DNA of 47,561 nucleotides from Candidatus Thalassospirochaeta sargassi (lineage in GTDB: Bacteria; Spirochaetota; Spirochaetia; UBA9216). The stretch lies in NCBI GenBank assembly GCA_028532855.1, contig JAQQAL010000041.1, positions 1 to 47,561 of the forward strand, given 5' to 3'. Below, piece after piece: positions 35,425-40,488 of this stretch (positions are counted from its first letter, which is position 1; every line of letters begins with the position of its first letter). The position numbers and the translations under genes are program-made. The notes beneath the pieces were generated by a model that saw only the letters and a list, made by a program, of their open reading frames with translations, was not told the origin of the DNA and ran no database searches.

Positions 35425-35543
35425 AAACGAAAAGGAGCAATGCATAAATTTCACATCCATGCTCAATTTATGTCTGAAGTGTGAAACATTTTCAAACTTC
35501 AAACACAAACACTGCCGTCCATGGCAGTTTGGAAGAGGTATAC

Positions 35544-36344
35544 ATGAAATCACCAAAAGAAACGGCTCTTGATCGAAAAATTCTGAAAGAGATCAATGGG
35601 AAATGCCGCAGGACTGTAGAGTATATGATTAACGACCCGGAAATCAAGCATCTTCAGGATTATGCAAATACAGTCTCCATCAAGCGTCTGCACTACAATG
35701 ACCACGGCCCGGTACACATGCGGATGGTTGCACTTAATGCAGTACACATGGCAGTACTACTTAGAGAAAAAGGAATCGCTTTCAGCCTAGAAAATGAAGG
35801 TTGCGGAAGTTTTGATGACAGTCTTACCGCTATACTGATTGCGGCCTTTCTGCACGATATAGGGATGTCAATTGGTCGTCATGATCATGAGAAAAACTCA
35901 GTCGTTCTTGCCGCCCCGATAATAGACCGAATACTTCGCCATATTTACGGCAATAATATAGAAAGGATTATTATTTTACGCTCACTGGCACTTGAATGCA
36001 TAAGCGGTCATATGGGCACGCAGAAAATTCATTCTCTTGAAGCTGGTCTGCTGCTTATTGCTGATGGTCTTGATATGGAAAAAGGCAGAGCTAGAATTCC
36101 AATGATGATTGACTCTGGCGCACAGGTCGGCGACATACATAAGTACTCTGCTGCGGCAATCGAAATGGTTACAATAGAAGAAGGCAGGCAAAAACCGCTT
36201 AAAATTATAGTTGAAATGAGCGAATCAATAGGCTTATTCCAGATAGAAGAGGTTTTATTTGCCAAAATAAATTCAAGCCCTATGAAACAGTATATTGAAC
36301 TCTACGCCACTATTGCCGACCAGAAACCGAAACGGTATCTATAG
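35544..36344 (+). CDS. HD-domain phosphohydrolase of unknown substrate
   Basis: A 266-residue soluble protein of the HD superfamily. The metal-binding pattern is H50 and H54 (LHYNDHGPVHM), H104-D105 (AFLHDIGMSIG), H113 and H115, H156 (ISGHMG) and D174/D177 (IADGLDMEKGRARIP). HD enzymes hydrolyse nucleotides or phosphoesters; the substrate cannot be told from sequence. The C-terminal 80 residues form a mixed alpha/beta domain of their own. I chose the ATG at 35544 because GAGG lies five bases upstream; the longer frame would begin in leader sequence. It is the only plus-strand gene in the left 40 kb and diverges from the tRNA-Thr promoter. Confidence 0.85.
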   Translation: MKSPKETALDRKILKEINGKCRRTVEYMINDPEIKHLQDYANTVSIKRLHYNDHGPVHMRMVALNAVHMAVLLREKGIAFSLENEGCGSFDDSLTAILIAAFLHDIGMSIGRHDHEKNSVVLAAPIIDRILRHIYGNNIERIIILRSLALECISGHMGTQKIHSLEAGLLLIADGLDMEKGRARIPMMIDSGAQVGDIHKYSAAAIEMVTIEEGRQKPLKIIVEMSESIGLFQIEEVLFAKINSSPMKQYIELYATIADQKPKRYL

Positions 36345-36407: not shown

Positions 36408-37859
36408 CTAATTGCGACAAACGCGGATTCCCCCCATTTGAACCTCGTTATATGTCGGGGAATAATTACGCATACCAACACGGAGATTTTCTGTCGCATC
36501 CCAAGCTGACCCACCTCTTATTATACGCCCGGAACCTGATTCAGCCCCAATAGGATCTGTCTGCGGTGAATCTGAATAAAAATCATACCAGTCCCAACAA
36601 AACTCCTCCACATTACCGCTCATATCATAGATCCCAAGCTCATTCGGTTCTTTGCCGCCAACGGGATGGCTTCCATCTGAACTATTCCCACCATACCAGG
36701 CTACAGTGTAAACATCATTACTACCGGCATATAAACCATCTGTATCATACCCCCCCCCTCGTGCAGCAAATTCCCATTCTGCTTCTGTAGGCAGTCGATA
36801 CCCCTCTCCTGACCAATTGCATTCTGAATTATCGCATACAAAACCACCATCATCACTGGAATCAGTCACCACAGCACCGTCATAAGTATAAGAAGGCTCC
36901 AGTCCAGTGAACTCACTCAATGCATTACACCACACAACCGCATCACGCCAATTAATCCATTTAGCAGGCAGTCCATTATAAAAGTTAAAATCAAATGAAT
37001 AATAACTACCCGAATTTTGAAAATTATACCCGTTAGCAATAGCCCATTCATAAACTTCGCTCCACTGCTCCCAGGTTATTTCATACTTACCTATTTCAAA
37101 ACCTGAAACGGTTACCTCATGCAGAGGAGAAGCCCACTCTTCATCTCCCATAATAAATGAACCGCCCGAAACCGGAACCAGCTCAATTTCTTCTATGTTG
37201 AAACTTCCGAGACTCCATGCTGAGACCTGCCCCTCAGAGTTTACGACCCGTACACGCCAATAATGGAGTTGATCAACAGCTAACGCTTCATTCGGTGTAA
37301 AATTATTTAAGAATACGATTTTTGAAACAGCAGTATCTAATTCACTTTTGGTATCAGCAGTCTGGATTTCATAGTAGTCAGCCCCGTCCACCGCATCCCA
37401 GCTGAATTCCGGGGTTCTATCGAGATAACTGTCACCCTCGGCTGGAACGGCATTGGTAATAATGTTTACAAATGAAACTTCTCCGATATCACTCCAGACT
37501 CCCCAACTGCCGTCCTTCAAAGCTCGTACTCGATAATAATAAATCTCTCCGACAATAAAATCATGTAGAGGAACCATTACATTGGAATCAAAATCATCCT
37601 TATTGAATAGAAGCTCACCAGAAAAATCTTCTATATTGGATATCTGCAACTGATAAGCCGTTGCGTCAAATATTATATTCGATCTAAATATACACCAACA
37701 GGTTTCATCATCCGGGATAAGAGCAATATTATCCTTATCTTCAGTAGTCAAAAACCCTTGATATTCGGGGCTCTCGACATCTACCGGATTAAAATATTCA
37801 TAGGAGCATGATGTCGCCAGAATCAGTAGAAGAAAAAATCTCAAATAAGATATTTTCAT
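36408..37859 (-). CDS. Lipoprotein with fibronectin-like and FGE-fold domains
   Basis: A 483-residue protein with a lipoprotein signal peptide (lipobox LATSC, Cys18), so an outer- or inner-membrane lipoprotein. Residues about 40-230 form two fibronectin-III-like domains (IYYYRVRALKDGSWGVWSDI; LHYWRVRVVNSEGQVSAW). Residues about 232-483 are a formylglycine-generating-enzyme-type (SUMF1) domain: VSGGSFIMGDE, EVTVSGFEIGKYEITWEQW, RLPTEAEWEFAARGG, GIYDMSGNVEEFCWDWY and RIIRGGSAWD. The two catalytic cysteines of true FGE are absent at the C-terminal end (RVGMRNYSPTY), so activation of sulfatases is unlikely and a binding or other role more likely. The start overlaps the stop of the CsgG-like gene by four bases (ATGA), so they are translated together. 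Confidence 0.9.
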   Translation of the reverse strand: MKISYLRFFLLLILATSCSYEYFNPVDVESPEYQGFLTTEDKDNIALIPDDETCWCIFRSNIIFDATAYQLQISNIEDFSGELLFNKDDFDSNVMVPLHDFIVGEIYYYRVRALKDGSWGVWSDIGEVSFVNIITNAVPAEGDSYLDRTPEFSWDAVDGADYYEIQTADTKSELDTAVSKIVFLNNFTPNEALAVDQLHYWRVRVVNSEGQVSAWSLGSFNIEEIELVPVSGGSFIMGDEEWASPLHEVTVSGFEIGKYEITWEQWSEVYEWAIANGYNFQNSGSYYSFDFNFYNGLPAKWINWRDAVVWCNALSEFTGLEPSYTYDGAVVTDSSDDGGFVCDNSECNWSGEGYRLPTEAEWEFAARGGGYDTDGLYAGSNDVYTVAWYGGNSSDGSHPVGGKEPNELGIYDMSGNVEEFCWDWYDFYSDSPQTDPIGAESGSGRIIRGGSAWDATENLRVGMRNYSPTYNEVQMGGIRVCRN

Positions 37860-39118
37860 GAATCTATTCCTCCACTCAATTCCGATAATTCATACGACAA
37901 ACGGCCAAGCTCTTTCTCCATAGATTCGCGATTCTTATCTTTCCATGGAATACAGGCACCTATGAGAGTTCCGATAGAACCGCTCACAAGTCCCGCAGTT
38001 TCTAAATTCGCATAGACTGCAAGCATATCTCTGCTTTCTGCGGCGGCCTCTGAAGTTTCTGCATTGTTATATATTTCAAATTCAGATTCGCCAATAATAT
38101 ATATAATTCCAGATGATAAAAACCCAATACCCCCGGCCCCGAATGCAGCACATCTTAATAAGTTCAAGGTTTTCATCCGTCTGTCGGAATCTGAAATAAG
38201 CATATCAAGTTCATCAATCCTGTTTCTAATGGCAGTTTTAAGGAGCTGTTCCCCTTTAAAAATCAAATCTTCAGAACTATCGATTTGTTGATCAATATCC
38301 TCTATATGCGACCTGACTTTTTCAAGCTCAGATCCGGGGTCCCGGCTTTGGCATATGGTATCAGCAAGCAAGTTATTTTCAATCTCAAGATATTCGACCT
38401 TGTAAATGAGTTTGGGCATAAGCATACATGGCTCAAGTCTATGCACTGTGATACTATCTACATACGGCTCGAAATTCTCGCCTGTGATCTCAACTGAATA
38501 AATTCCGACCGGTAAATCAACTAAACCTCTACCAGAGATTCTTTCATCAACCATGATACCTATAATCCTACATTCCGCTCCGGGAGATATATCATACTGG
38601 ATCTCGCCCAATGCAACTGCAGTATGTTCTACACCTCCGGTGTTCCCGGTAAAACCAGCGATCTTGTAAGCTAATAATGGAATTGCTGATTCAGTCAGTT
38701 CGACAATATCATCAGCCGCTACAAAATCCGCATCTACATTACGCCCAAGTTCAACATCAATTATCTTTACATTGGCATAATAGCGTTCACCAGCTTTTGA
38801 CAATTCGCCGAGAATTATAAATTCTGCGGATAACAACTTTCCAACTTCAACAGCGCAGCTATCATCAGTACAACCGGAGAGTGAGACAGCCTGAGCATCA
38901 AGAATCTCTCCCATCTGATTCTGTTCTATGATTCTGAAAACTTCAGTCTTTACAAGTGCCGTTTCAAAAAGACCTGAAACTATACGCCCTTCCGATGCAG
39001 GCGCATCAATCACAGAGAATGGAATAATAGCCAGCCGCGGTTTATCTTGAGAATATAGCTGAAATATACACACCGAAAACAGAAATAGAAGAACAGCAGA
39101 AATTTTTTTTCTTTTCAT
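37856..39118 (-). CDS. Secreted CsgG-like/PEGA-domain protein
   Basis: A 420-residue protein with a signal peptide (residues 1-23, ending LYS before QDKP). Residues about 25-165 resemble the CsgG/LpoB-type envelope domain: RLAIIPFSVIDAP, SGLFETALVKTEVFRIIE, SAEFIILGELSKAGERYYAN. It includes a Cys pair (SGCTDDSC) that could form a disulfide. Residues about 170-240 look like a PEGA domain (LVDLPVGIYSVEITGENFEP). A coiled coil and two glycine-rich hydrophobic helices follow. Start ATG at 39118 has GGGGGG seven bases upstream. It forms a two-gene operon with the FGE-fold lipoprotein; the joint function is unknown but must be in the cell envelope. Confidence 0.82.
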   Translation of the reverse strand: MKRKKISAVLLFLFSVCIFQLYSQDKPRLAIIPFSVIDAPASEGRIVSGLFETALVKTEVFRIIEQNQMGEILDAQAVSLSGCTDDSCAVEVGKLLSAEFIILGELSKAGERYYANVKIIDVELGRNVDADFVAADDIVELTESAIPLLAYKIAGFTGNTGGVEHTAVALGEIQYDISPGAECRIIGIMVDERISGRGLVDLPVGIYSVEITGENFEPYVDSITVHRLEPCMLMPKLIYKVEYLEIENNLLADTICQSRDPGSELEKVRSHIEDIDQQIDSSEDLIFKGEQLLKTAIRNRIDELDMLISDSDRRMKTLNLLRCAAFGAGGIGFLSSGIIYIIGESEFEIYNNAETSEAAAESRDMLAVYANLETAGLVSGSIGTLIGACIPWKDKNRESMEKELGRLSYELSELSGGIDS

Positions 39119-39143
39119 CCGACATCCCCCCAAATTTATCTTA

Positions 39144-39198: not shown

Positions 39199-40434
39199 TT
39201 ACGACGGGCCCAAGTGCCTGTTGATTATCTTTGTATTATCAAGAAGTGAGCTTAATGAGTTACCGTGGTGTACGCGAGAGATTGTTCTTGCGAAGAGTTC
39301 GCTGATACAGGCTGAAACGTACCATTCCCGTCCCAGACCAACGGCGGTATGATATACTGCGTTTGTTCCGATAATTCTGTCAAACAGCCCCTTCTGATAT
39401 GCTTCTTCAAAATTTTCTACTGCGTCTCCGGTAAACAGGGGAAGACTGACTGCACAGATTATCTTTTCAGCGCCTTCCTTCTTCAGCATTTCCATTGCCT
39501 TGATGAGGGTTCCGCCGGTGCCGAGCATATCATCAGCCATAAAGACAGTCTTACCTTTAACGTCACCGAGCATCTTCATATTCGTGATATTGTTGGCTTT
39601 TGCGTTGGAGCTGACTTTGGAATAGTCGCGTTCTTTGTAAATCATCGCCAGCGGTTTATTAAGAGTTCCGGCAAAAAATTTATTCCTGTCGACGGCTCCG
39701 GTATCGGGCGATACAACTACAAGATCATCGCTTTCAAGATCAGCAAGCTCTGAGAGTTCCCGTATAATCTGGTATGAAGCATGCAGGTTTTCAAGGTGAA
39801 GAGACTGAAAAGTCATTTCAATTGCCTTGGAGTGAATATCGAGGGTAATAATTCTTGAGACTCCCATCTGTTCACAGGTGCGGCCGAACCAGGAGGCGGT
39901 TAATGCCTCACGGCCTTTCTTCTTATGCTGTCTGCTGTACGGAAAAAGAGGAGCAACAACAGTTACGCTCCTGGCTCCTGCACCGATAACGGCATCAATG
40001 GTAGTAAACATAACCATCAGGTGATCATTTACCGACATGGAAACCTCATTGCCGTCCTGGTTAATATCCATTGGATAATGGTTGCCCGGATCCTGTACAA
40101 TATAAATATCCATATCCCTGATGGACATCTGAATTTCCGATTTCACTTCCCCATTTGCAAAGCGTGTAAATTTCATCGGGATCTTGTAATTAGGAGCCCT
40201 GTATTTAGCCACATCCTTAGGGCGCTGCCCCTTTCGGGAGGTGAGCTCATTTACAAAATTGATATTCCTGATCACTTCTTCCCTGCTGTAACCATAACGG
40301 GAAACAAGAGAATCAGCAGTTTTCTTATAATATTTCAAATAGATTGATTTTAAATCGGAAATAATTTCTTCGGTTATCTTTTCAGCACCGGGACAGGCGA
40401 TCACACCCAACAGAGACGACCTCGTAAAAACCAT
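39199..40434 (-). CDS. prs: Ribose-phosphate pyrophosphokinase, N-terminally extended form
   Basis: A protein of about 411 residues that makes PRPP from ribose 5-phosphate and ATP for nucleotide, His and Trp synthesis. Core motifs are RFANGEVKSEIQMSIRDMDI, LFPYSRQHKKKGREALTA (ATP site), TLDIHSKAIEMTF with the catalytic histidine, VVSPDTGAVDRNKFF, flexible loop YKERDYSK and the PRPP-binding MADDMLGTGGTLIKA. Normal enzymes have about 315 residues with about 38 before the FxxGE motif; here there are about 90-110, so the N-terminus carries an extra helical region. The start is uncertain: ATG at 40434 has GGTGGG upstream, while a TTG at 40488 would add 18 residues but has no ribosome-binding site. 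Confidence 0.92.
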   Translation of the reverse strand: MVFTRSSLLGVIACPGAEKITEEIISDLKSIYLKYYKKTADSLVSRYGYSREEVIRNINFVNELTSRKGQRPKDVAKYRAPNYKIPMKFTRFANGEVKSEIQMSIRDMDIYIVQDPGNHYPMDINQDGNEVSMSVNDHLMVMFTTIDAVIGAGARSVTVVAPLFPYSRQHKKKGREALTASWFGRTCEQMGVSRIITLDIHSKAIEMTFQSLHLENLHASYQIIRELSELADLESDDLVVVSPDTGAVDRNKFFAGTLNKPLAMIYKERDYSKVSSNAKANNITNMKMLGDVKGKTVFMADDMLGTGGTLIKAMEMLKKEGAEKIICAVSLPLFTGDAVENFEEAYQKGLFDRIIGTNAVYHTAVGLGREWYVSACISELFARTISRVHHGNSLSSLLDNTKIINRHLGPS

Positions 40435-40488
40435 ATAACCCACCAGATTTTGATAGCTGACTGTATCATATAGAAGAGTCGTTTTCAA

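Follow-up and report, generated by a model that had tools for sequence, protein, structure and literature searches.

An exported CsgG/LpoB-like adaptor and an FGE-fold lipoprotein as a candidate cassette of a modular envelope ligand-binding system in Spirochaetota

Two overlapping genes of Candidatus Thalassospirochaeta sargassi encode an exported protein with a CsgG/LpoB-type domain and a lipoprotein with an FGE fold, which raises the question of whether their products work together and, if so, at what. The genes lie in a stretch of 47,561 nucleotides (contig JAQQAL010000041.1), referred to here as the window, and the initial annotation proposed for them either an unknown envelope assembly or a surface-recognition system. 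Our analysis favours the second part of this proposal, since recurring adjacency, the natural occurrence of fusions and an orthologue coupled to a diversity-generating retroelement (DGR) indicate a unit of the surface-recognition type, whereas nothing points to a role of the first protein, called adaptor below, in assembly or as an export channel. On balance, we lean towards a modular system for ligand binding at the envelope, in which a constant adaptor is combined with an exchangeable head; the pair would be one cassette of it and probably belongs, as a single unit, to a ligand-binding repertoire.

The overlapping gene pair

Both reading frames were recovered on the minus strand with the ATGA overlap described initially (Table 1), and the proposed export of both products agrees with a cleavable-type signal peptide of the adaptor, recognised by eye, and with the lipobox ATS-C18 of the lipoprotein. 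An alternative TTG start at 39133 would extend the adaptor by five amino acids. A scan for promoters and terminators gave scores no better than those of shuffled sequences. The pair is flanked by a ribose-phosphate pyrophosphokinase-like gene (39199-40488) and a gene for an HD domain protein (35481-36344). The nearest two-gene orthologue of both window genes (locus L032) was found in 'Spirochaetales bacterium MAG2' (JAEINK; genome G006). Neither flanking gene was evident beside this orthologous pair; thus, no conserved third gene was found.

Table 1 Features of the gene pair in the window (all on the minus strand; aa, amino acid positions in the respective protein)
Feature	Coordinates	Strand	Basis or remark
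CsgG/LpoB/TolB-N-like exported adaptor gene	37856..39118	-	420 aa; ATG start 39118
CsgN domain, aa 26-158, TolB-N/PelC/FlgT/LpoB fold	38645..39043	-	Pfam CsgG 8.2e-6; VIA fold Z
Cys pair GCxDxxC (C83, C88)	38855..38872	-	alignment, 24/25 sequences
PEGA-like beta-domain, aa 168-233	38420..38617	-	model pLDDT >90 over most; Pfam 0.064; significant PEGA in relatives
C-terminal helical stalk and predicted membrane hairpin	37871..38398	-	predicted model; hydrophobic segments
Hairpin helices of adaptor stalk	~38093-38149 and ~37949-38005	-	predicted
ATGA stop/start overlap	37856..37859	-	sequence
FGE-fold lipoprotein gene	36408..37859	-	483 aa
Lipidated cysteine C18, lipobox ATSC	37806..37808	-	sequence
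NPVD tether motif, common to lipoproteins encoded after CsgN genes	37779..37790	-	motif counts
First Ig/Fn3-like domain (weak)	37467..37763	-	fn3 0.013, aa 68-125
Second Ig/Fn3-like domain	37212..37418	-	Ig_Rha78A_N 1.5e-7, aa 148-216
FGE-sulfatase / C-type-lectin-like head	36420..37184	-	PF03781 3.9e-39, aa 226-480; best PDB match 2y3c TvpA
Equivalent of DGR-target variable region, not diversified here	36426..36509	-	NNC codons; genome copy search

A constant adaptor with exchangeable heads

A scan of genome contigs with the single adaptor protein gave no relatives, whereas an alignment-based scan did. We gathered 84 CsgN ORFs from about 80 loci in the genomes of relatives; the window's own genome contains nine homologues of the adaptor. 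The gene following CsgN encoded a lipoprotein in 29 of 45 cases, compared with 32 of 370 other ORFs (p=1e-16, paralogues included). These lipoproteins often carry a tether motif of the form (D)NPxDP: NPxD was present shortly past the lipid cysteine in 19/29 of them and in 2/32 other lipoproteins (p=1.4e-6). As the motif had been picked after seeing these data, we ran both comparisons again on an additional set of loci, taken from other genomes in the phylum, and obtained 11/21 versus 9/112 for the lipoprotein (p=7.6e-6, paralogues included) and 7/11 versus 1/9 for the motif (p=0.028). The motif test was run on proteins because DNA patterns do not find the cassettes: NPxDP searched as a DNA pattern gave 22 sites in the window's own genome, and none of the 12 that were read back (one strand) lay in a lipoprotein.

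In many loci, the adaptor and the next gene overlap by ATGA or are separated by near-zero gaps. The window's own genome has four CsgN genes with a lipoprotein partner, the partners being FGE, Kelch, DUF5122 and one without an assignment, and a fifth fused to FGE (L029). For about half of the CsgN genes, no lipoprotein is encoded next door; the adaptor must therefore also serve other purposes or have partners encoded elsewhere. The initial annotation had named the separate occurrence of the two genes in most genomes as an argument against it. This argument applies in part: most FGE genes have no CsgN neighbour, and the adaptor is paired more often with non-FGE lipoproteins than with FGE. CsgG and FGE as separate adjacent genes occur in few loci (window, L032, L076, L297 and L302), two of them bicistronic units in distant families (L297, L302). 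The frequent pairing with non-FGE lipoproteins is of interest precisely because the head is exchangeable.

Indeed, the adaptor is constant, and the lipoprotein head changes from locus to locus. Besides FGE (window, L032, L076), the partner heads comprise RCC1 propellers (L035, L039), Kelch (L037, L047; sub-threshold in L043), DUF5122 (L038, L068), BNR (L060, sub-threshold), laminin-G (L056, L058, L062, L078), Fn3 arrays (L067, L084), InlB/List_Bact repeats (L034, L054, L077) and DUF1566 (L044; sub-threshold in L034). In a tree of the CsgN domain, which is based on few columns and has many open forks, L034 and L035 are sisters (support 97) with wholly different partners, and L038 and L048 are sisters (support 93) whose partners differ, the CBM96 match of the L048 partner being weak. 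A CsgN subgroup whose members (L049, L070, L081, from three genomes) all lie upstream of one particular gene looks like a separate orthologous group; L049 has no Cys pair, and the downstream gene product starts with MNIDPTKL and was judged by eye to be possibly a formate-THF ligase.

CsgN and FGE were also found in a single chain (L029, L042, L064, L169, L319), and three of these proteins (L029, L169, L319) are compact fusions of 413-432 aa with no lipobox, tether or stalk. The link between adaptor and lipoprotein is drawn from adjacency together with these natural fusions. CsgN is further fused to a Peripla_BP_6 periplasmic binding protein (L087, 2018-3628) and to EF-hands (L090, 3338-5413), which suggests that it is joined more widely to ligand-binding or sensing domains. 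A third FGE protein of the window's own genome combines PEGA and FGE with an N-terminal membrane anchor and has no CsgN (L030, 5430-6998, contig C52).

The main rival to a ligand-binding cassette is a dedicated chaperone or localisation factor, which would recognise the NPxDP tether in the periplasm and help to carry or flip the lipoprotein to the outer surface. A constant adaptor, one common motif close to the lipid anchor, the variety of unrelated heads and the position of the adaptor gene as the first of the pair would all fit such a factor. However, the compact fusions join CsgN covalently to the FGE head in the absence of lipobox and tether; the role of CsgN thus goes beyond exporting a separate lipoprotein, and many CsgN genes have no neighbouring lipoprotein to be carried. 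We therefore regard this explanation as unlikely, albeit the strongest of the alternatives.

The FGE-fold head and DGR-coupled relatives

The initial annotation described the lipoprotein as two fibronectin-like domains joined to an FGE fold lacking the cysteines for formylglycine formation. The FGE assignment is sound, and no cysteine occurs between C421 and C481, where FGE has its catalytic pair. The fibronectin-like part stands less firmly: the second domain was matched well by Ig_Rha78A_N and the first only weakly by fn3. The model has pLDDT <50 at residues 19-153 and is good only from about residue 220; because the N-terminal Fn3-like part is so poorly modelled, the call of two Fn3 domains comes from sequence. 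A decayed copy of a normal FGE, considered initially as a refutation, was ruled out, as the frame is intact and all 17 of the residues invariant across 21 homologues are retained in the alignment. In this clade, the FGE cysteines are normally missing, so that their lack is no sign of decay.

The closest solved structure to the head is TvpA (2y3c), with 5.1e-34 by sequence and 1.9e-23 by fold. TvpA is the DGR variable protein of Treponema denticola and is predicted to be located on the cell surface (PMC4891356). In the genome with the nearest two-gene orthologue, the lipoprotein gene is directly followed by an HRDC gene (1.1e-16) and an overlapping gene for a DGR-type reverse transcriptase (RT) (L032, 8255-9467; G006:C22). 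The best PDB match of this RT is 8ub7 (1.7e-34), itself an RT of the DGR type. With the RT at G198:C1:2303438-2304121, a position that agrees with the one published for T. denticola (PMC4891356), the G006 RT shares 53% identity. The T. denticola DGR has the order target, template repeat (TR), HRDC and RT, with HRDC and RT overlapping (PMC4891356), and the gene order and the HRDC/RT overlap in G006 match it. The G006 RT is cut near a contig end built of a repeated unit of 30-45 bases, and this is probably an assembly end. The G006 assembly yielded no template repeat, and a search with the variable region (VR) for a template or remote targets in this genome gave one 30-base match only. Since no template was found in the assembly and the contig ends inside the RT, DGR activity in G006 is putative. 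The variable region of L032 has a mild excess of NNC codons (p=0.007).

Two FGE proteins with a CsgN or CsgN-like domain have identifiable templates. The complete case is L288 (G256), from elsewhere in the phylum, where CsgN, three PEGA domains and FGE form one chain. Its CsgN domain reaches only 0.0048 with Pfam LpoB and 3.4e-13 with the CsgN model built here, and the Cys pair is present. All differences between the 3' end of this gene and a template located between the gene and the RT are at template adenines (26/26), and judged from its sequence this is a textbook DGR target. In L322 (G087), a CsgN-like (0.0016, GCGAESC) FGE protein, the proportion is 24/25. As a control of the method, the T. 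denticola TR/VR pair was recovered with 19/20 differences at template adenines, and shuffled sequences gave none. The NNC codon bias of the variable region was p=7.5e-6 for TvpA and p=5e-6 for L288.

Weaker cases were kept apart. CsgN matches in two other DGR targets (L272, L277) were weak (22 and 27 bits, no Pfam match) and do not serve as main evidence, and the RTs of G002 and G004 were set aside, since no FGE, HRDC or CsgN was recognised beside them on their short contigs. A CsgN-PEGA-FGE fusion in the DGR-bearing genome G006 (L064, 1636-3837; G006:C108) shows an NNC excess in its variable-region equivalent (p=2e-4) and could be a DGR target, either remote or former. Four tandem FGE genes next to a DGR-like RT and HRDC (L275, 7995-12565; G186) are apparently possible DGR targets.

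The window copy itself was rejected as a DGR target. No RT was found in its genome (G000, assembly about 100% complete), no copy of the 3' end of the lipoprotein gene elsewhere in this genome and no TR/VR pair between 30 and 45 kb in the window. The variable-region equivalent has no NNC bias (3/26 codons versus 59/422, p=0.73). The window gene is a fixed, non-diversifying version.

Alternatively, the head might be an enzyme of a different kind, resembling PvdO or EgtB, with envelope components as substrates and the adaptor holding it in position. Catalysis is possible in FGE folds that lack the Cys pair, and the structural neighbours of the head include PvdO, CarF and EgtB. Nevertheless, TvpA, a non-enzymatic variable protein, is nearest by a wide margin, DGR rewrites the equivalent surface in relatives, and paralogues fill the equivalent slot with propellers, laminin-G or Fn3 domains, which makes an enzyme improbable.

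Adaptor fold, proposed role and comparison with known systems

For the adaptor, the CsgG/LpoB-type domain and the Cys pair named in the initial annotation were both found again. The Pfam matches are CsgG (PF03783, 8.2e-6, 62 aa) and LpoB (0.013), and G82, C83, D85, C88, E91 and G93 are conserved in an alignment of 25 adaptor relatives, the Cys pair being present in 24 of them. The PEGA domain is upheld in part: a beta-domain is seen in the AlphaFold model (mean pLDDT 87.7), and PEGA matches are significant in close relatives, but the window adaptor stays below the Pfam threshold. A long C-terminal helix and a membrane hairpin, absent from the initial description, were predicted by the model (helices H261-351, H356-389 and H395-416, with two hydrophobic stretches), and two hydrophobic C-terminal segments are present in 33 of 84 adaptor relatives. 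In these 33 relatives, the flanks of the hairpin (37949-38149 in the window) contain on average 4.2 K/R and the loop 2.0, the loop being acidic with a mean net charge of -4.2. Because this charge pattern is the reverse of that expected from the positive-inside rule for an adaptor with a periplasmic N-domain, the membrane and the topology are unsure.

In fold comparisons (VIA Z), the CsgN domain scored 12.6 with TolB, 12.2 with PelC, 12.0 with FlgT, 11.4 with LpoB (C-terminal fold; 108 residues, rmsd 2.5) and 10.4 with CsgG, and its modelled rmsd was 2.5-3.5 to TolB-N, PelC, FlgT and LpoB versus 4.9 to CsgG. Going by the predicted model, the domain is better called TolB-N/PelC/LpoB-like than a CsgG pore. 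The Pfam CsgG match would suggest a channel of the CsgG type in the outer membrane, through which the lipoprotein or some other substrate is exported. Such a channel is thus very improbable: the match spans aa 45-106 only, short loops connect the modelled strands 100-109, 112-121 and 126-135, no membrane beta-hairpin inserts of the CsgG type are seen in the model, and a pattern search found no lipobox. Finally, that two unrelated envelope genes are neighbours by chance, as the handful of loci with the exact separate pair might suggest, is hardly credible in view of the significant recurrence, the ATGA or near-zero gaps in many loci and the natural fusions.

Under the ligand-binding cassette that we favour, the adaptor would consist of a periplasmic TolB-N/LpoB-like domain with the Cys pair, the PEGA-like domain and a coiled-coil stalk with the membrane hairpin, and the lipoprotein would bear its FGE-type C-type-lectin binding head on the lipid-proximal (D)NPxDP tether and Ig/Fn3 spacers. 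Spirochaete lipoproteins are expected to be surface-exposed, and we infer that the head would bind a ligand at the cell surface or beyond it. The adaptor, held by stalk and hairpin, would contact the lipoprotein near the tether and couple it, possibly with signalling, to the cell wall or inner membrane. Specificity would change when one head fold is exchanged for another or, in some relatives, when a DGR hypermutates the FGE head. More tentatively, Spirochaetota might possess an unrecognised envelope receptor repertoire, with several TolB-N/LpoB-like adaptors per genome, often in one operon with lipoproteins whose heads are swapped and in some cases DGR-hypermutated, and with recognition passed from the surface to the periplasm via the adaptor; this wider proposal is possible rather than probable.

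We know of no partner or downstream pathway of DGR variable proteins in spirochaetes. The function of TvpA itself was given as unknown (PMC4891356). A constant partner beside or fused to the same lectin-like head, DGR forms included, offers a handle on what the variable heads are connected to. Moreover, with one adaptor serving many unrelated heads, gene neighbourhood alone could be used to detect surface ligand-binding lipoproteins of uncultured spirochaetes. In the openly licensed literature, we found neither this cassette described nor any CsgG/LpoB-like partner of an FGE variable protein; the single parts are familiar, and their arrangement appears to be new.

The first domain of the adaptor shares its fold with TolB-N, LpoB, PelC and FlgT, which are periplasmic partner-binding domains. 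Its closest kin are TolA- and PBP1B-binding scaffold or regulatory domains, and such kinship alone is no argument for ligand reception. Unlike LpoB and PelC, the window adaptor is no lipoprotein, and unlike TolB, it has no beta-propeller in its chain (Pfam, model); it adds the Cys pair, the PEGA-like domain and the helical membrane hairpin. With the CsgG curli channel it has in common the weak Pfam match and probably the core fold, the predicted fold being closer to TolB-N, PelC and LpoB. It differs from CsgG in its lack of lipobox and modelled membrane inserts, and no curli gene was recognised among the neighbours examined.

With TvpA, the window lipoprotein shares the FGE-type C-type-lectin head (PDB 2y3c), and many DGR targets are predicted surface lipoproteins (PMC4891356). 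In contrast to the T. denticola DGR, the window genome has no RT or template, and the window head comes with Ig/Fn3 spacers and a paired adaptor; no CsgN adaptor was detected within about 4.5 kb upstream and 7.5 kb downstream of T. denticola TvpA (L274). The nearest analogues in print are DGR-linked FGE domains in NTP-dependent conflict systems outside this phylum, namely the VMAP ternary conflict systems (PMC7159879) and the DGR antigen sensors of multicellular bacteria (PMC10907252), in which a hypermutated FGE/C-type-lectin domain is likewise linked or fused to a constant partner. By comparison, the constant partner in the Spirochaetota cassettes is an exported LpoB/TolB-N-like protein, most copies of which are not linked to a DGR.
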